Of a stretch of 7,127 nt of DNA, positions 2,957-7,127 are shown in pieces. Position numbers and translations under genes: made by a program. The notes under the pieces are model-generated. The model was given only the letters and a program-made list of their open reading frames with translations, was not told where the DNA came from and did not search any database. Location: the NCBI GenBank assembly GCA_020047885.1, contig JAIFNF010000140.1, positions 1-7,127 on the forward strand, in the 5' to 3' direction. Every line of letters starts with the position of its first letter. Position 1 is the first letter of the stretch. This stretch comes from Gammaproteobacteria bacterium (GTDB lineage: Bacteria; Pseudomonadota; Gammaproteobacteria; Competibacterales; Competibacteraceae).

Positions 2957-2961
2957 GCCGC

Positions 2962-2997
2962 GTCGGTTGGGTTGACGGCTTTATCGTCAACCCAACC
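2962..2997 (+). repeat. REP-like palindrome, GGTTGGGTT family, copy A
   Basis: A perfect 13-bp stem (2965-2977 with 2985-2997) encloses the 7-nt loop GCTTTAT. It begins 5 nt after the stop codon of the large protein. The foot is GTCG (2962-2965) where the other two copies (3829, 6961) have GTAG. No T-run follows, so it is not a standard intrinsic terminator by itself. Confidence 0.85.
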
Positions 2998-3002
2998 CTG
3001 CT

Positions 3003-3040
3003 AAATCCCCCCCAACCCCCCTTTTTCAAAGGGGGGAGCC
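3003..3040. repeat. 38-bp C/G-rich dispersed element, copy 1
   Basis: Begins AAAT plus a C-run (3003-3013) and ends CAAAGGGGGGAGCC (3027-3040). The inner 9-bp stem CCCCCCTTT (3016-3024) pairs with AAAGGGGGG (3028-3036). A second 38-bp copy with the same ends but a different centre lies at 5194-5231. Confidence 0.75.
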
Positions 3041-3050
3041 AGATGAAAGG

Positions 3051-3083
3051 AACCGCCCTCGGGAAACCGGGGGCGGTTTTTTT
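3051..3083 (+). terminator. Rho-independent terminator after the large protein gene
   Basis: AACCGCCC (3051-3058) pairs with GGGCGGTT (3071-3078) across a 12-nt loop, followed by an unbroken T-run (3077-3083). It is the first of four near-identical GGAACCGC...GGGCGGTTTTTT terminators in the window and presumably ends transcription of the large protein before the toxin-antitoxin cassette. Confidence 0.85.
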
Positions 3084-3098
3084 GGTGGGTGATTAGGC

Positions 3099-3104
3099 TA
3101 TAAT
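3099..3104 (+). promoter_or_regulatory. Candidate -10 box for the toxin-antitoxin operon
   Basis: A perfect TATAAT lies 15 nt after the terminator T-run and about 97 nt upstream of the antitoxin ATG. There is no good -35 box; the T-run itself (3077-3082) is the only T-rich hexamer at proper spacing. An alternative is TTGACA at 3111-3116, which lacks a convincing -10. Confidence 0.45.
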
Positions 3105-3200
3105 CGGAACTTGACAAGCAATGACACGGAAAAATCTGTGAATTCGGCGTCGGTTTGGAACACAATGCCCCGGTCTTTTTGTGCAGAAAGAGGTGATGTC

Positions 3201-3428
3201 ATGACCACGGCTGAAAGAATTTTTGAGGAAGCGCGCGCATTGCCCGAGTGTGATCTGCGTGAATTACTGAATTTTGTTGGCTATCTGAAGTCTCGCACAC
3301 GCCAGTCCATGGTCAACGAAGCCGATGTTGAAGCAGAGACCGACTGGGCAGAGTTCGAGCAGGGCGCTGGCCTCTGGTCGGGGAAGTTTATGCGTGAAGC
3401 CTGTTATGACCGCAAGATTCTTCGCTGA
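3201..3428 (+). CDS. DUF2281/VapB-like antitoxin
   Basis: A 75-residue protein. The start at ATG 3201 is preferred over upstream TTG 3111 because a strong Shine-Dalgarno AGAGGTG (3189-3195) sits 5 nt before it and the upstream residues look non-coding. Residues 1-32 (MTTAERIFEEARALPECD, then LRELLNFVGYLKSR) match the short helical pattern of DUF2281/VapB-like antitoxins, which pair with PIN toxins. Residues 40-60 are acidic and probably form the toxin-neutralising tail. The last 23 nt overlap the start of the toxin gene in another frame, the usual sign of translational coupling in antitoxin-first operons. Inferred role: binding and inhibiting the downstream PIN RNase and perhaps repressing the operon. 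No obvious DNA-binding fold can be proven by eye, and the family call comes from pattern memory. Confidence 0.75.
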   Translation: MTTAERIFEEARALPECDLRELLNFVGYLKSRTRQSMVNEADVEAETDWAEFEQGAGLWSGKFMREACYDRKILR

Positions 3429-3807
3429 TACCAATGTCGCCGTCTATGCGCTCGACGCCGATCCGCAACGCCATGAGCAGGCTTTATCCATCATGCGGCG
3501 GTGCCCGGTGATCAGCACACAGGTCGTCAATGAATTCATCAGCGTACTGACTGGCAAGCAACGGGTGCCGCGTGACCGGGCTAACCGATATGCACGCATT
3601 CTGCTGCGCCGCTGCGAAGTCGTCTCCTTGACACCGCAAACGGTCGAGAGCGCCATCTGCATCGGCGAGCGTTACCAGGTTAGCCATTGGGACGCCCTGA
3701 TCGTTGCGTCCGCGTTGCTGACGGGTTGCGACACGCTGTATTCCGAAGATTTGCAGGATGGCCAGGTGTTCGAGGGGAGCCTCACCGTCAAGAATCCGTT
3801 TGCTTGA
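3406..3807 (+). CDS. PIN-domain toxin, VapC-like ribonuclease
   Basis: A 133-residue PIN-domain protein, normal length for VapC. All four acidic positions expected for the metal-binding active site are present: D8 (FFADTNVAVYALD), E43 (VVNEFISVL), D96 (HWDALIVASA) and D115 (LYSEDLQDG), plus the conserved N10. Family knowledge: VapC-type PIN proteins are Mg2+/Mn2+-dependent endoribonucleases, often cutting tRNA or rRNA, held inactive by the partner antitoxin. ATG 3406 is chosen because the PIN fold starts immediately after it (MTARFFADTN); a GTG at 3394 in the same frame is possible. A GTGAAG ribosome site at 3394-3399 lies inside the antitoxin gene, so translation is probably coupled. The gene looks complete and undamaged, unlike most of its neighbours. 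Confidence 0.9.
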   Translation: MTARFFADTNVAVYALDADPQRHEQALSIMRRCPVISTQVVNEFISVLTGKQRVPRDRANRYARILLRRCEVVSLTPQTVESAICIGERYQVSHWDALIVASALLTGCDTLYSEDLQDGQVFEGSLTVKNPFA

Positions 3808-3828
3808 CTGGATGAGCCGGGTAGCATC

Positions 3829-3862
3829 GTAGGTTGGGTTGCCGTCCTTTTGGCAACCCAAC
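3829..3862 (+). repeat. REP-like palindrome, GGTTGGGTT family, copy B
   Basis: The foot GTAG (3829-3832) is directly followed by the 11-bp perfect stem GTTGGGTTGCC (3833-3843) / GGCAACCCAAC (3852-3862) with an 8-nt loop. The inner two stem pairs and the loop differ from copies A and C, yet base pairing is kept. It begins 21 nt after the toxin stop codon. Confidence 0.85.
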
Positions 3863-3882
3863 ATTTCCTACGGAACCCACGG

Positions 3883-3914
3883 AACCGCCTCCCAATTATC
3901 GGGGGCGGTTTTTT
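3883..3914 (+). terminator. Rho-independent terminator after the toxin-antitoxin operon
   Basis: AACCGCCTCC (3883-3892) pairs with GGGGGCGGTT (3901-3910) with one U-G wobble and an 8-nt loop, followed by six T (3909-3914). Same family as the terminators at 3051, 4300 and 6582. Confidence 0.85.
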
Positions 3915-3933
3915 ATTGCGGGCGATGTTGGGA

Positions 3934-3939
3934 TATAAT
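3934..3939 (+). promoter_or_regulatory. Candidate -10 box upstream of the DUF4160 remnant
   Basis: A perfect TATAAT lies 19 nt after the terminator T-run and 36 nt before the ATG at 3976. The spacing repeats the terminator-then-TATAAT layout seen at 3051-3104. A weak TTTATT (3912-3917) is at 16-nt spacing. Confidence 0.45.
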
Positions 3940-3975
3940 GATGTGGTTTTCAATCATCTATGCACTAGAGTGGTT

Positions 3976-4084
3976 ATGCCCACCATCAGCATGTTTTAGT
4001 GGGATTCTGGTCAGTCTTTTTTTTGAGGACAATGATCGCCACCATCTACCTCATATTCATGTTCGCTACCAAGGTAGCAAGTAG
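3976..4084 (+). pseudogene. DUF4160 family gene remnant, frameshifted and truncated
   Basis: ATG 3976 opens MPTISMF, then TAG at 3997-3999. Removing one base (G3999) gives MPTISMFYGILV joined to FFEDNDRHHLPHIHVRYQG, which matches the start of DUF4160 proteins (typically MPTISMFYGI...HH.PHxHxxYQG). The family is a small conserved domain of about 80-90 residues, often next to DUF2442 in toxin-antitoxin-like pairs; its function is not established. Here coding stops after residue 35 or so, exactly where the GTAG foot of a BIME begins (4081), and the TAG stop at 4082-4084 belongs to the repeat. No DUF2442 partner is visible. The remnant is non-functional on two counts: a +1 shift and loss of the C-terminal half. 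A TATAAT 36 nt upstream suggests the old promoter remains. Confidence 0.7.
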
Positions 4085-4173
4085 GGCGGATTCGGAGCGC
4101 AAGCGACAATCCGCCTCTTCCGGGGCGGACCACTGGGATGAGGATGGCGGTTCGCTACGCGGAACCGCCCTAC
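4081..4173. repeat. BIME copy 1: head-to-head REP pair with GTAG feet
   Basis: The 93-bp element is bounded by perfect 9-bp inverted ends GTAGGGCGG (4081-4089) and CCGCCCTAC (4165-4173). The left hairpin pairs GGCGGATT with AATCCGCC around a CGGAGCGCAAGCGAC bubble and loop. The right hairpin, read on the minus strand, is GTAG plus GGCGGTTC...GAACCGCC. A GTAG foot plus an imperfect hairpin is the diagnostic form of REP sequences acted on by RAYT transposases. Confidence 0.85.
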
Positions 4174-4195
4174 AGGAACCCGTAGCAAGCAACCC

Positions 4196-4287
4196 GTAAG
4201 GTGGTTTCGGAGCGAAGCGACAATCCGCCTCTTCCGGGGCGGACCACTGGGATGAGGATGGCGGTTCGCTACGCGGAACCGCCCTAC
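4196..4287. repeat. BIME copy 2
   Basis: A 92-bp tandem neighbour of copy 1, separated from it by 22 bp (4174-4195). The left foot is GTAA and the right foot CTAC. Its left stem carries changes (GGTGGTTTC) that weaken pairing; the right hairpin is perfect. It is followed by the tail AGGAACGACAGGAACCGCTC that leads into the terminator at 4300. Confidence 0.8.
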
Positions 4288-4299
4288 AGGAACGACAGG

Positions 4300-4330
4300 A
4301 ACCGCTCACGGGCCACCGGGGCGGTTTTTT
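4300..4330 (+). terminator. Rho-independent terminator attached to BIME copy 2
   Basis: AACCGCTC (4300-4307) pairs with GGGCGGTT (4319-4326), one U-G pair, followed by six T (4325-4330). With BIME copy 2 it forms a unit repeated almost exactly at 6478-6615. Confidence 0.75.
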
Positions 4331-4347
4331 GTTCGCGGCGTTACCGG

Positions 4348-4353
4348 TAAAAT
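4348..4353 (+). promoter_or_regulatory. Weak candidate -10 box for the RAYT remnant
   Basis: TAAAAT sits 17 nt after the terminator T-run (4325-4330), which would occupy the -35 position. It ends only 6 nt before the RAYT ATG at 4360, and no Shine-Dalgarno is visible, so a transcript from here would be leaderless or nearly so. Confidence 0.3.
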
Positions 4354-4359
4354 GTGCTG

Positions 4360-4539
4360 ATGCCTAACTATCGACGTGCCTTCATCCCCGGTGGGTGTTA
4401 CTTCTTCACGGTCAATCTCCTTGAACGACAGCGAGTAGCCGATTGGCCGTATTCAACCTTTCATCGTGCGGTTTATGAAGGTCTTTTACCTATGGACTGG
4501 TGCGGCGAAGTCGTAGATTTGCCAACCGCCGCTGAATGA
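4360..4539 (+). pseudogene. RAYT (REP-associated tyrosine transposase) with internal deletion
   Basis: A 59-codon open frame starting at ATG 4360. Residues 1-24 (MPNYRRAFIPGGCYFFTVNL, LERQ) are the characteristic N-terminus of RAYT/Y1-type TnpA_REP proteins. Residues 25-59 (RVADWPYSTFHR, then VYEGLLPMDWCGEV) are the characteristic C-terminus. Intact relatives are roughly 150-180 residues, so about 100 residues are missing between Q24 and R25 (near 4429-4437). That loss includes the HxH metal-binding motif (LPDHLH-like), the catalytic tyrosine region and the NPVKHGL-like segment. The deletion is in frame and clean, but the product cannot be an active transposase. The gene lies between BIME copy 2 and a half-BIME at 4536, the arrangement expected of a REPtron. 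Its stop codon overlaps the edge of that half-BIME. Confidence 0.85.
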
Positions 4540-4567
4540 GGCGGTTCGCTACGCGGAACCACCCTAC
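4536..4567. repeat. Half BIME (right REP only) after the RAYT remnant
   Basis: ATGAG plus GCGGTTCGCTACGCGGAACC and ACCCTAC match the right half of BIME copies 1-3 with one change (CCACCCTAC for CCGCCCTAC) and a short gap. The left REP is absent; RAYT coding sequence stands in its place. The following AGGAACGACAGGAACCGC tail is the same as that after copies 2 and 3. Confidence 0.75.
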
Positions 4568-4590
4568 AGGAACGACAGGAACCGCCACCC

Positions 4591-5190
4591 ATGAAAACCT
4601 TCCTCCATGTGGGCTGCGGCCCCAAAACCAAAGCCCAAACCACCCGCGGCTTCAACACCGACGACTGGCGCGAACTGCGCTTTGATATTGACGAAGCGGT
4701 ACAACCCGACCTCGTCGGCACTATGACCGATATGTCAGCCGTCGCCAGCGGATCGGTAGACGCCTTGTTCTCCAGTCACAACATCGAACACCTCTACCCG
4801 CACGAAGTCCCGGTGGCGCTGGCCGAATTCCGGCGCGTGCTGACCCCGGACGGCTTCGTGGTCATCACCTGCCCGGACTTGCAATCGGTCTGCGCCCTGA
4901 TCGCCGACGACAAACTCACCGAACCGGCCTACACCTCACCGGCGGGACCGATTGCCCCGCTGGACATCCTCTACGGCCACCGCGCCTCGATGGCACGGGG
5001 CAACCTCTACATGGCGCACCGCTGCGGCTTCACCGCCCGCGTGCTGACCGGCACCCTGCAAGCTCACGGCTTCACCACGACCATCAGCCGCCGCCGCGAC
5101 CATCCCTACTACGACCTGTGGGCCGCCGCCACCGTCGCCCCGGCTGACGAACCCACCCTGCGGGCACTCGCCGCCGCGCATTTTCCTTGA
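4591..5190 (+). CDS. Class I SAM-dependent methyltransferase
   Basis: A 199-residue protein, complete, in the normal range for small class I methyltransferases. Motif I is HVGCGP (residues 6-11). The acidic region FDIDEAVQPD (31-40) probably supplies the residue that binds the SAM ribose. SVDALFSSHNIEHLYPHEV (55-73) and FRRVLTPDGFVVITCPDLQ (80-98) are the usual motif IV/V-type segments of the Methyltransf_11-like group (resembling COG4627). The substrate is unknown; relatives often lie near glycosyltransferase genes, but none is present here. ATG 4591 is chosen because motif I starts six residues later. The nearest ribosome site, AGGA at 4577-4580, comes from the tail of the half-BIME, so a repeat may have supplied its translation signal. 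A 135-bp stretch of a second, about 88% identical gene is at 6343-6477. It converges with the Uma2 gene 55 bp downstream. Confidence 0.85.
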   Translation: MKTFLHVGCGPKTKAQTTRGFNTDDWRELRFDIDEAVQPDLVGTMTDMSAVASGSVDALFSSHNIEHLYPHEVPVALAEFRRVLTPDGFVVITCPDLQSVCALIADDKLTEPAYTSPAGPIAPLDILYGHRASMARGNLYMAHRCGFTARVLTGTLQAHGFTTTISRRRDHPYYDLWAAATVAPADEPTLRALAAAHFP

Positions 5191-5193
5191 CCC

Positions 5194-5231
5194 AAATCCC
5201 CCCTGGCCGGCCGTTGGCAAAGGGGGGAGCC
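5194..5231. repeat. 38-bp C/G-rich dispersed element, copy 2, between convergent genes
   Basis: Begins AAATCCCCCC (5194-5203) and ends CAAAGGGGGGAGCC (5218-5231), as in copy 1 at 3003-3040 and with the same total length. Its centre is TGGCCGGCCGTTGG instead of the copy-1 centre. The six C can pair with six G, giving a hairpin between two genes that meet tail to tail. No T-run follows on either strand. Confidence 0.65.
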
Positions 5232-5245
5232 GCGTAGATGGGGGC

Positions 5246-6211
5246 TTACTCAGCTTCGGGGTCGACCCCGAGCGCCCGCAACCGTTCCGCCAGCCGTGCG
5301 GCCCGCTGTTCAGCGGCGTACCGGGCTTGGGCTTCCTGTTCCCTGGCGGCGCGTTCCTGCTCGGCGCGGGCGCGTTCCTGCTCGGCGCGGGCGCGTTCCT
5401 GCTCGGCGCGGGCGCGTTCCTGTTCCTTGGCGGCGCGTTCCTGCTCGGCGCGGGCGGCTTGCTGCTCGGCGCGGGCGGCTTGCTGTTCGGCGCGGGCGGC
5501 TTGCTGTTCGGCGCGGGCGGCTTCTTCAGCGGCCTCACGGAATTCCACCCCCCGGAACCACACCCGCAGCTTGCGCCCCAACCGCCATGCCGAGCGCGGC
5601 AACACCTCCACCTCCAGCCCCGGAATCGCCACACTCCGATACCGCCGCCTGACCGGCAGGGGTGCCACCCGATACCGCCCCCGCCGTTCATCGTACCGAT
5701 GCCAGACCACCGACCGGGGATCCTCCGGCTCCGGGTAGATCAGGACAAATTCCCGCACGCCATGCACCGCATGACAGGCGCGCATCCGTACCGTATCCTT
5801 CTCCTCCTTTTCCCGCGTGGCGGTGCTCACCACCTCGACCGCCAGCACCAGCTCGGTCGCCATCAACCGCGAGGCGTCCGGATTCGCGGTCAGCGCGTAA
5901 TCGGGATACAAGACCTTTTGCTCCGGCGCGCCGGGCGGCCAGTACCACACCGGATTGTCGCTCACCGGGTATAACCCGGCGTCAGCCGCCACGCGCCCCA
6001 ACTGCGCCGCCAGATAAGCGATTGTTTCACTATGCGCACGCGATTGGGCCACGTCGAATTCCTCATCGTACCAGGGAATACCCTCCATCGATTCCGGCGA
6101 GTGGGGGATCGGGAGCAGTTGGGGCCGGAGCACCACGGGCTGGGCCGGCCGGGGACGCGCCTGCGCCCGGGGGGGCGGCAGGGACAGCGCCACCGTGGAC
6201 AGGGATGTCAT
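5246..6211 (-). CDS. Uma2-family (DUF820) nuclease-fold protein with heptad coiled coil
   Basis: A 321-residue protein. ATG at 6211 is preferred over TTG 6226 because the TTG lies in the Shine-Dalgarno itself: GAGGAGG (6218-6224 on the minus strand) is 6 nt before the ATG. Residues 1-40 are proline-rich. Residues 45-205 form the Uma2 domain of the PD-(D/E)XK superfamily: PD at 103-104 (YPDYAL), E126 in LAVEVVS, then D139 and GVREFVLIYPE (151-161). The lysine usually found in the K...Y...GV helix appears to be R142 here, so catalytic competence is uncertain. Residues 231-293 are nine perfect-length heptads (AARAEQQ, RARAEQE types) forming a charged coiled coil, and the end LAERLRALGVDPE is typical of the family. 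Uma2 proteins are annotated as putative restriction-type endonucleases, but their real role is not established. It is a single-gene unit. Confidence 0.85.
   Translation of the reverse strand: MTSLSTVALSLPPPRAQARPRPAQPVVLRPQLLPIPHSPESMEGIPWYDEEFDVAQSRAHSETIAYLAAQLGRVAADAGLYPVSDNPVWYWPPGAPEQKVLYPDYALTANPDASRLMATELVLAVEVVSTATREKEEKDTVRMRACHAVHGVREFVLIYPEPEDPRSVVWHRYDERRGRYRVAPLPVRRRYRSVAIPGLEVEVLPRSAWRLGRKLRVWFRGVEFREAAEEAARAEQQAARAEQQAARAEQQAARAEQERAAKEQERARAEQERARAEQERARAEQERAAREQEAQARYAAEQRAARLAERLRALGVDPEAE
5333..5521 (-). repeat. Nine 21-bp in-frame tandem repeats encoding the coiled coil
   Basis: The 189-bp tract inside the Uma2 gene encodes nine 7-residue units: three AARAEQQ, then AARAEQE, RAAKEQE, three RARAEQE and RAAREQE. 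Units are near-identical at DNA level, for example GCGTTCCTGCTCGGCGCGGG repeated on the plus strand, so copy number can change without shifting frame. Confidence 0.9.
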
Positions 6212-6245
6212 CGGTCGCCTCCTCAACAGTCAGGGAGAAAAAAGC

Positions 6246-6251
6246 AGTATA
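6246..6251 (-). promoter_or_regulatory. Possible -10 box for the Uma2 gene
   Basis: TATACT on the minus strand lies 34 nt upstream of the ATG at 6211. The hexamer 17 nt further upstream (TCTGAT) is a poor -35, so this is only a candidate. Confidence 0.3.
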
Positions 6252-6271
6252 GCAGGACGGGGGGCCGGATC

Positions 6272-6342
6272 AGATTAAAGGGGTCAGGCTCGAATGGTTT
6301 TGAGATTAAAGAGATTAAAGGGGGCCAGGCTCGAAGGATTTT
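6272..6342. repeat. Two 30-bp direct repeats
   Basis: AGATTAAAGGGGTCAGGCTC... (6272-6301) and AGATTAAAGGGGGCCAGGCT... (6312-6342) are near-identical copies. A third short AGATTAAAG lies at 6303-6311 between them. The second copy ends where homology to the methyltransferase gene begins (6343). No coding is seen. The rest of 6212-6342 holds the Uma2 ribosome site and a G-run, nothing else recognisable. Confidence 0.75.
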
Positions 6343-6477
6343 TACACCGCCCCGGCGGGACTGATCGCCCCACTGGACATCCTCTACGGCCATCGAGCCT
6401 CTATGGCGGCGGGTAACCGGTACATGGCGCACCGCTGCGGCTTCACCGCCCGCGTACTGACCGGCACCCTGCAAGCC
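6343..6477 (+). pseudogene. Internal fragment of a second methyltransferase gene
   Basis: The 135 bp align without gaps to 4930-5064, codons 114-158 of the intact methyltransferase (YTAPAGLIAPLDILYGHRAS then MAHRCGFTARVLTGTLQA). By eye there are 16 base differences (about 88% identity) but only four residue changes; nine of the changes are silent. It therefore comes from a diverged paralogue that was once under selection, not from a fresh copy. There is no start codon in context, and no motif I. The left edge abuts a direct repeat and the right edge is the GTAA foot of BIME copy 3. The frame runs on through the repeat to a stop near 6523. It is not functional. Confidence 0.85.
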
Positions 6478-6569
6478 GTAAGGCGGATTCGGAGCGAAGC
6501 GACAATCCGCCTCTTTCTGGGCTGACCACTGGGATGAGGATGGCGGTTCGCTACGCGGAACCGCCCTAC
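6478..6569. repeat. BIME copy 3
   Basis: A 92-bp element with foot GTAA at the left and CTAC at the right. The left stem GGCGGATT/AATCCGCC and right stem GGCGGTTC/GAACCGCC are perfect. It is the closest relative of copy 2, and the similarity continues through the tail and terminator to about 6615. Confidence 0.85.
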
Positions 6570-6581
6570 AGGAACGACAGG

Positions 6582-6612
6582 AACCGCTCACGGGCAACCG
6601 GGGCGGTTTTTT
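6582..6612 (+). terminator. Rho-independent terminator attached to BIME copy 3
   Basis: AACCGCTC (6582-6589) pairs with GGGCGGTT (6601-6608) with one U-G pair, followed by six T (6607-6612). It matches the terminator at 4300 except for one loop base. No intact gene lies upstream on this strand to need it. Confidence 0.75.
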
Positions 6613-6648
6613 GTTAGGCGCGGATCTGAAATCTTGGCGCGGGGGAAT

Positions 6649-6685
6649 GATGGGTTTCGCTGCGCTCTATCCATCCTAGGCCTAC
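6649..6685 (-). repeat. Third REP-like palindrome (GATGGAT family)
   Basis: Read on the minus strand: GTAG at 6685-6682, a 6-nt spacer, then GATGGAT...ACCCATC, a 7-bp stem including one wobble pair, with AGAGCGCAGCGA in the loop. The AGCGCAGCGA-type centre resembles the CGGAGCGAAGCGA centre of the BIME left hairpin. Confidence 0.6.
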
Positions 6686-6720
6686 GCCAATCGGTGTGTG
6701 TTGTTGTCGTACGAAAGCAA

Positions 6721-6810
6721 GTAGGGCGGATTCGGAGCGCAAGCGACAAACCGCCACTTTCAGCGCAGCGGGCGGGGCTGATGGCGGTTCGCTACGCGGA
6801 ACCACCCTAT
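6721..6810. repeat. BIME copy 4, degenerate
   Basis: A 90-bp copy: the left foot GTAG and left stem GGCGG / CCGCC are kept, the middle is diverged (6751-6780), and the right end is CCACCCTAT, so the right foot has decayed to ATAG on the minus strand. It is preceded by AGCAA, as is copy 1. Confidence 0.75.
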
Positions 6811-6833
6811 AAACCGGTAGCAAGGGTGACGGG

Positions 6834-6974
6834 ATGATGCATTTTGTGGTAAAGCAAGAGCCGCTACCATCGAAATGGCGGCTCTATCTGGATTTGTGCT
6901 GCTTCAATCGACCTTACGACGATCAGCGACACTCGCGCATCGCTTTGGAAACGCAGCCTCGTAGGTTGGGTTGA
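6834..6974 (+). pseudogene. N-terminal fragment of a second PIN-domain gene
   Basis: The frame contains LYLDLCCFNRPYDDQ then RHSRIALETQ (6882-6956), matching the start of a PIN-like family that begins M-x-I-YLDxCCLNRPFDDQ...RIRLEAEA. The first catalytic aspartate (codon 6891-6893) and conserved N are present; everything after about residue 27 of the domain is lost. Coding similarity ends at 6956-6960, right at the GTAG foot of the palindrome at 6961, and the frame then stops at 6972-6974 inside the palindrome. The natural start is probably ATG 6875, which is out of frame by one extra G (6878); in the present frame the only ATGs are at 6834 and 6837, followed by unrelated residues. It differs from the intact toxin at 3406 and is non-functional. 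Confidence 0.65.
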
Positions 6975-6996
6975 TGGCTTTATTGTCAACCCAACG
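6961..6996 (+). repeat. REP-like palindrome, GGTTGGGTT family, copy C
   Basis: The foot GTAG (6961-6964) is followed by stem GTTGGGTTGA (6965-6974) / TCAACCCAAC (6986-6995), extended inward by two G-U pairs (6975/6985 and 6976/6984) around the same GCTTTAT loop as copy A. It cuts the PIN fragment. Confidence 0.85.
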
Positions 6997-7127
6997 CTGC
7001 ACCGGCTGACGAATGAAACGAACTGCCCCTTGGGAAACCTGACCATTACCCATATTTATTCCCGGAGTTGCTGACCCACGCGGACGCCGGCACGGAAGCC
7101 GGCGACGAGCAAGCTCAGTGCCTGTAA
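6997..7127. other. Unassigned 3' end of window with one stem-loop
   Basis: A frame is open from 7017 to the TAA at 7125-7127 (reading NELPLGKPDHYPYLFPELL onward) but has no start codon and no family I recognise, so I do not call it a gene. CGCCGGC (7085-7091) and GCCGGCG (7098-7104) form a 7-bp stem with a 6-nt loop. Nothing else is recognisable. Confidence 0.4.

Follow-up and report, generated by a model that had tools for sequence, protein, structure and literature searches.

Gene remnants ending at or near the GTAG-type feet of repetitive extragenic palindromes in a Competibacteraceae contig

The described systems closest to the repeats treated here are the repetitive extragenic palindromic (REP) elements of the GTAG super-family, which carry an unpaired GTAG-type tetranucleotide, here called the foot, at the base of a short palindrome, and the REP-associated tyrosine transposases (RAYTs). 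According to passages of Di Nocera 2013 (PMC3733652), the GTAG tag is common to 24 REP families, REPs lie near the 3' ends of genes in the species plotted, most of those between convergent genes being less than 20 bp away, and a TAG stop codon is often provided by a GTAG terminus. An excerpt of Bertels and Rainey 2011 (PMC3116915) describes the REP doublet as the mobile unit, for which excision reads are seen, and names it REPIN (REP doublet forming a hairpin). Part of Nunvar 2010 (PMC2817692) describes REP-rayt-REP units and 3' ends of rayt caught inside bacterial interspersed mosaic elements (BIMEs), and contains the proposal of Nunvar et al. that RAYTs may bring about rearrangements by joining cleaved ends in trans. 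As given in sections of PMC8266576, E. coli TnpA-REP cuts at CT, either 5' or 3' of the hairpin, and a Marinomonas enzyme cuts at CT or CA, GTAG serving there as the guide and the palindrome being important too; two other enzymes depend on loop positions, and one binds GTAG mutants normally and then cleaves them poorly or not at all. The same sections report that E. coli TnpA-REP also processes the REPs of a second group-2 system, for which GTAG is crucial together with 'a handful' of features and the bulge is still required, and their authors infer that RAYTs and REPs have co-evolved. The stretch analysed here, called the window, is the 7,127 bases of contig JAIFNF010000140.1 from a member of the Competibacteraceae. 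From position 2957 onward it consists of small genes, gene pieces and repeats, and three of the gene pieces end at or within a few bases of the foot of a GTAG-type REP.

The three remnants, the intact paralogue with which one of them is compared and the repeats that adjoin them are as follows.

3976..4081 (+), DUF4160/DhiT-like remnant, frameshifted, with its 3' part missing; it matches positions 1-25 of 65 of Pfam PF13711, and its NCBI match is below the cut-off
4081..4173 (+), E1, REP doublet (REPIN/BIME), GTAG ... CTAC, identified from sequence and fold
4591..5190 (+), complete methyltransferase-like open reading frame (ORF) of 199 aa, with which the fragment is compared
6343..6476 (+), methyltransferase fragment, broken on both sides and corresponding to residues 114-158 of the complete copy
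6478..6569 (+), E3, REP doublet, foot GTAA, followed by a terminator-like hairpin as at E2 (listed below)
6876..6956 (+), remnant of a PIN gene, the first ~26 codons, with its distal part missing, delimited by alignment with relatives
6961..6995 (+), family-2 REP, foot GTAG, with the 5' tail AGCCTC at 6955-6960; predicted hairpin -9.7 kcal/mol, z -5.6

The first-pass annotation of this DNA held that all three remnants end exactly at the foot. Alignment with relatives and with the paralogue across the junctions shows that the remnants and the repeats are real and that homology ends at or near each foot, but the exact borders of two remnants had to be corrected. The DUF4160 remnant is one gene in two frames, with a frameshift near 3996, and its relatives are 85% and 78% identical to it over 27 residues, the second of them itself having a stop. 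Its homology can extend through the Lys codon at 4079-4081 and thus as far as the proposed border at 4080/4081, and the stop codon of its frame, TAG at 4082-4084, is supplied by the foot of E1. The closest relative (85%) has Ala after the Lys encoded at 4079-4081. Since the five bases AGCAA stand both before the foot of E1 and before another doublet, E4 (6716-6720), the actual border may be a few bases to the left of this. The methyltransferase fragment is 89% identical to positions 4930-5063 of the intact copy over 134 nt. Its homology ends at 6476, C6477 departs from the intact copy and the foot GTAA occupies 6478-6481, so that the border formerly placed at 6477 was one base too far. The PIN remnant does not obey a strict foot boundary: where the window has Leu-Glu-Thr-Gln-Pro, its relatives have Leu-Glu-Thr-Glu-Ala or a similar sequence, homology reaches the Glu-Thr codons at ~6952 (at most 6956), and the GTAG at 6961 follows after a gap of 4-8 nt, by which the former border at 6960 was misplaced. 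Before the other two family-2 feet of the window, the AGCCTC that precedes this one reappears as AGCCGC and AGCATC, each with a single change, and AGCNNC occurs at the matching place in 13 of 77 distinct family-2 flanks of relatives; these bases seem to belong to the repeat or to a favoured site.

The 5' break of the methyltransferase fragment (6343) is away from any foot. Directly 5' of it, at 6277-6342, a 25-nt unit of the GGGTCAGGCTCGAA type is present twice (84% alike), possibly as the terminus of a further mobile element. Relatives of the complete methyltransferase-like protein (4591-5190) that are 66-85% identical to it are labelled Pseudomonas, Chlorobium, Desulfamplus and Verrucomicrobia (a metagenome-assembled genome), which suggests wide horizontal transfer.

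The breaks were compared with the feet under a null of uniform placement over 2957-7127, using six breaks (the 3' break of DUF4160, both breaks of the methyltransferase and PIN pieces and the internal break of the RAYT remnant described below) and 12 feet. Three of the six breaks are found no more than 9 nt 5' of a foot (P = 4e-4), two within 5 nt (P = 0.004, or three with P = 1e-4 when the PIN break is put at 6956) and two within 2 nt (P = 0.001), values that are a rough guide because breaks and feet were hand-picked and the null is uniform. Pure chance is an unlikely explanation of the association. A break hot spot common to DUF4160 and PIN genes and tied to the REPs was considered and dropped: the DUF4160 genes at loci L180 and L183 are broken at about the codon seen in the window, as is the PIN gene at L167, and no REP of either family is seen in the 260 nt after these breaks.

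The other repeats and genes of this region that bear on the question are the following.

2962..2997 (+), family-2 REP with the variant foot GTCG, starting 5 nt past the stop codon (2954-2956) of a long repeat-rich gene
3201..3807 (+), VapB-like/VapC (PIN) pair, flanked on both sides by family-2 REPs
3829..3862 (+), family-2 REP, foot GTAG, 21 nt past the vapC stop; predicted hairpin -13.1 kcal/mol, z -5.7
4196..4287 (+), E2, doublet of the E1 type, foot GTAA, identified from sequence, with a terminator-like hairpin behind it
4360..4536 (+), RAYT remnant, an N-terminal piece (4369-4431) in frame with a C-terminal piece (4432-4524)
4540..4567 (-), solo right-hand REP that follows the RAYT remnant, with GTAG in the minus-strand reading
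6721..6810 (+), E4, diverged REP doublet, GTAG ... CTAT, identified from sequence

The repeats are REPs of the GTAG type, and those of family 1 are inverted doublets (REPINs/BIMEs). Each of E1-E4 contains two different hairpins in inverted order with a short spacer, opens with GTAG or GTAA and closes with CTAC or CTAT, and all four share one orientation and are thus direct repeats. Family 2 (GTAGGTTGGGTTG...) is present as single hairpins at 2962, 3829 and 6961. The foot is GTAG in four copies, GTAA in two and GTCG in one. Hairpins are predicted for all six stretches that were folded as single-stranded DNA (z -2.2 to -5.7; E2 and E4 were left out). The foot is unpaired in the hairpins folded singly, whereas in E1, for which a single long hairpin is predicted (-27.7 kcal/mol, z -4.5), it pairs with the CTAC end; the best predicted fold of E3 consists of separate hairpins. 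An inverted repeat resembling a terminator (GGAACCGCC ... GGGGCGGTTTTTT) is present at 3045, 3877, 4294 and 6576, and E2 and E3 including their terminators are 95% identical over 145 nt (4189-4333 and 6471-6615). No gene remnant was noticed before E4, where no separate search was made. Inspection by eye shows a REP-like palindrome of yet a third type (GATGGGTTTCGCTGCGCTCTATCCATCCTAG) at 6645-6680.

No complete HUH transposase is present in the window. The ORF at 4354-4539 matches positions 1-25 of 146 of the NCBI REP-associated tyrosine transposase family NF047646 with 22.6 bits, short of the cut-off of 80. Compared with the RAYT frame L340 of the Chromatiaceae genome G448, positions 4369-4428 correspond to residues 20-39 (E 0.012) and positions 4432-4524 to residues 160-190 (E 2e-8), and the RAYT frame L338 of genome G431 gives the same two-piece picture (E 6e-7 and 6e-4). 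About 120 residues (about 40-159 of the L340 frame) are gone, including the PDHLH stretch, which is taken for the HUH motif. The window RAYT should be inactive, because the middle with this putative motif is absent; a further RAYT copy elsewhere in the genome is possible. From its position among the family-1 copies, between E2 and the solo inverted REP, the remnant may have been the cognate of family 1.

As for the neighbouring genes, the PIN domain of VapC is nearly complete (positions 2-111 of 120 of PF01850, 2.6e-15), and its VapB-like partner has weak profile matches below the cut-offs. The long repeat-rich gene (3-2956, +) changes frame near 967-1094 and again near 1565-1755 and is spread over three overlapping ORFs, which points to frameshifts or assembly errors. 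The Uma2-like protein encoded at 5249-6226 (-), whose relatives carry PF05685, has a C-terminal tail in which Ala, Glu, Gln and Arg abound and which 21-nt repeats encode. Candidatus Competibacteraceae is among its named relatives, and the protein matches hint at a host near that group.

A sample of 87 genomes from the family of G007 (the source of the Allochromatium humboldtianum locus L056), that is, of Chromatiaceae relatives, was searched with the 13-mer GTAGGTTGGGTTG of family 2. The family is found in 18 of the 87, in many copies in some of them (105 in G425, 70 in G448, 22 in G393, 10 in G400 and 7 in G401), with 0 or 1 match per genome for a reversed-pattern control. Copies were located for 45 of the 105 in G425 and 45 of the 70 in G448; 100 stretches were taken and 142 distinct copies retained. 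Gene ends around 130 copies (G425, G393, G400, G448 and G401) were called crudely, as ORFs of 80 aa or more. Forty-two copies fall inside an ORF, 29 of them in G448 and G401, where such calls are unreliable because these genomes are GC-rich. Among the remaining 88 copies, the foot faces the 3' end of the upstream gene in 53, and in 22 of these the gene ends no more than 20 nt from the foot, whereas 9.5 would be expected if placement within these gaps were uniform (13/27 in G425, 5/11 in G393, 2/5 in G400 and 2/10 in G448/G401). Facing 5' ends are this close in 4 of 35 cases, against 4.3 expected. The TAG of the foot serves as stop codon in 3 of the 53 facing genes. These results indicate that the ending of genes at the family-2 foot is a common habit. 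The flanks of family-2 copies diverge up to the foot, apart from position -1, which is a C or T in 70 of the 77 distinct flanks, and from less marked biases at -6 to -2.

The idea that family-2 REPs mark toxin-antitoxin cassettes only was dropped, since they also follow genes for a sigma factor, adenylate kinase, phosphofructokinase and Ham1. At L265 (G393, contig 13, 84000-102000), DUF4160-DUF2442 and other small genes are arrayed between family-2 REPs in a layout that resembles the window; a 626-nt stretch carrying DUF4160-DUF2442 has a second copy there, 97% identical, whose end lies 13 nt within a family-2 REP. A search of predicted proteins for REP-encoded tails gave no candidate.

Insertion of a family-2 element is seen directly in the pair G448 and G401, which are 89-97% identical over the listed shared stretches of more than 1 kb. 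Nineteen G448 sites were located in G401, and 47 G448 copies were tested against 35 G401 loci. Both flanks fall on one target for three of the 47: L279 (60-nt overlap, 81-84% identity), L280 and L303 (69 nt between the flanks). At L280, compared with the empty site L372 of G401, an element of ~165 nt is inserted with no target base lost; its left border falls 3 nt 5' of GTAG, and it carries the family-2 hairpin on the left and a further hairpin ending CCTAC on the right. At L300/L360 the border is 5 nt before GTAG, but the flank is duplicated. The cut-off of the RAYT family is passed by one match in G448 and by none in G401 (13 weaker matches), and the REP copies number 70 and 7 respectively; the two genomes are a natural pair of close relatives for the study of REP spread. 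Their intergenic regions are full of short tandem repeats. No relative of the window locus was found, so that filled and empty states are known for one family-2 site of G448/G401 only.

Family 1 was hardly met with in the genomes, phages, plasmids and viral contigs searched. In relatives, 1-5 matches turn up in 6 of 8 genomes; all carry one mismatch, and the reversed control matches at much the same rate. Twelve of 366 genomes have one or two matches to a family-1 pattern, and none of the ten sites inspected is the REP; the Uma2-like protein is found in none of 369 genomes from the class of G006 at E 1e-20. Among the best 80 of 238 methyltransferase-bearing loci, none is labelled Competibacteraceae, and seven motif patterns gave one match. 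Phages and plasmids have no DNA match to family 1, and the DUF4160 piece has no plasmid match. In viral contigs, two patterns gave 0 matches and a 15-mer gave 67, of which only the distant contig L098 resembles a distant REP relative; another viral contig, L108, has the 19-mer but lacks the palindrome and was rejected.

In the model for the insertion sequence IS608, insertion takes place 3' of a fixed short target. GCAA stands 0-3 nt before all four family-1 feet (GCAA|GTAG, GCAACCC|GTAA, GCAAGCC|GTAA and GCAA|GTAG in E1-E4), and if this flank held in many copies, a target rule of the RAYT would be readable from sequence. The GCAA of E3 is gene sequence, present in the complete methyltransferase paralogue. 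E1 and E4, and likewise E2 and E3, share flanking sequence, so that there are perhaps two independent cases. The three REP-like sites of L098 lack GCAA, which weighs against reading it as a target. In family-2 flanks, GCAA occurs within the last 8 nt once among 77.

The most probable reading is that the junctions are old REP insertions into decaying genes whose distal parts were lost later, and to it we give an even chance. Two GTAG-tagged REP families would have been inserted in or beside genes in the past, probably by RAYTs, the left border of the element lying 0 to ~8 nt 5' of GTAG/GTAA, since cleavage would take place at a dinucleotide close to the hairpin. Genes struck within their coding part would then have decayed, and the part beyond the element would have been lost in a later, separate deletion, for example by recombination between elements of the same orientation, leaving a gene start followed by an element. 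We infer that the three junctions began as insertions, that a RAYT was responsible and in what manner the distal parts were lost. Borders a few bases off the foot are expected from the CT/CA cleavage near the hairpin described in sections of PMC8266576. The one-sided homology at the junctions fixes the REP border to a few bases, 0-8 nt before GTAG here, as this cleavage in vitro predicts. RAYT-mediated insertion, as proposed in the first-pass annotation, is thus consistent with the GTAG-type REPs, the RAYT remnant among the family-1 copies and the clean insertion at L280, but insertion alone fails to account for the absence of the distal halves. The accompanying suggestion that one enzyme reads mainly the foot in both families is not demonstrated. 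The activity of E. coli TnpA-REP on the REPs of another system leaves some room for it, but the need for a bulge, the loop dependence of other enzymes and the co-evolution that the authors infer, all in the available sections of PMC8266576, speak against it, and since passages of PMC3733652 give the tag in 24 families, two families with an equal foot need not share an enzyme.

Several results weigh against insertion followed by distal loss. No distal part of the DUF4160, methyltransferase or PIN gene is present in the window (tblastn gave only chance-level matches besides vapC and the complete methyltransferase), so that a second event is needed beyond insertion. A truncation scan with Pfam covered 40 of 113 ORFs, hand-chosen and mostly longer; 19 contain a family over the cut-off, and in 16 of these the C-terminal-side domain comes within 6 positions of the profile end. 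The other three are uninformative: L231 has TPR repeats, and the GCV_T domain of L315 and the glutamine amidotransferase domain of L300 end well before the protein end. Visible cutting by the foot is seen in none of the 19, and the feet adjoin mostly complete genes; truncations elsewhere remain possible, because short or frameshifted remnants were outside this sample. At L256, a 635-aa ORF is stopped by the TAG of the foot. Of nine relatives besides its own record, seven have 614-651 aa and two are shorter (563 and 403 aa), and their C-termini fall within ~20 alignment columns of its end, so that the protein is complete or almost so. L280/L372 is moreover the only clean pair among the 47 copies and 35 loci compared.

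Hairpins provoke deletions by replication slippage, and it is possible, if rather unlikely, that no RAYT took part: the elements would already have lain 3' of the genes, and slippage would have removed the distal half up to the hairpin base. This would account for distal halves missing in three of three cases and agrees with the predicted hairpins and with the 22 of 53 gene ends close to a foot in relatives. Slippage would, however, be expected to leave a piece of the gap or to erode the foot in many cases, and the methyltransferase fragment is also cut at its 5' side, away from any foot. Homologous recombination between REPs, by which the left neighbour of one element is joined to the right neighbour of another, would be favoured by the 95% identity of E2 and E3 with their terminators, by the direct repetition of E1-E4 and by the duplication in G393 that ends inside a family-2 REP; it is unlikely nonetheless, for, illegitimate crossover apart, it presupposes an element already present within each gene. 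A RAYT may instead have cut beside the hairpins and rejoined the ends in trans at a fixed 5' target, so that gene starts were ligated onto other elements and distal halves discarded in one step, a reading that follows from the proposal in the cited part of PMC2817692 and that we consider very unlikely. If it were true, a domesticated transposase would truncate genes directly and would follow a target rule like that of IS608. Finally, REPs may simply land or be kept at the 3' ends of frames, nothing having been broken at the element. Such a habit is published (passages of PMC3733652), agrees with the 22 of 53 gene ends counted in relatives and suits the DUF4160 frame, which closes with the TAG of the foot, but homology itself, not the frame alone, ends mid-gene at or near the element in all three remnants, and the frames of the methyltransferase and PIN remnants have no stop codon at the foot. 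As a full explanation it is highly improbable.

Among the known systems, single-strand transposition of the IS200/IS605 type (IS608; sections of PMC8266576) resembles the window in its hairpin with a 5' guide tetranucleotide, and differs in that the window contains no complete transposase and no target motif is demonstrated in it. The REP-rayt-REP units described in part of PMC2817692 resemble it in that the window rayt lies between elements of one REP family, but this rayt has lost its middle and should be inactive. Among the papers listed on RAYT/REP, truncated pseudogenes and deletion endpoints of mosaic elements, judged by title and abstract opening, none describing gene remnants cut at REP feet was found. 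The likeness to the REPINs/BIMEs of the GTAG super-family, as presented in passages of PMC3116915 and PMC3733652, extends to the GTAG foot, the palindromic stem, the inverted doublets (E1-E4), the position at 3' gene ends and the TAG stop, while the neighbours in the window are three mid-gene truncations and family 2 is present there as a singlet. Genes that end at a REP foot are already published, and the window adds examples from decaying genes to this known habit.

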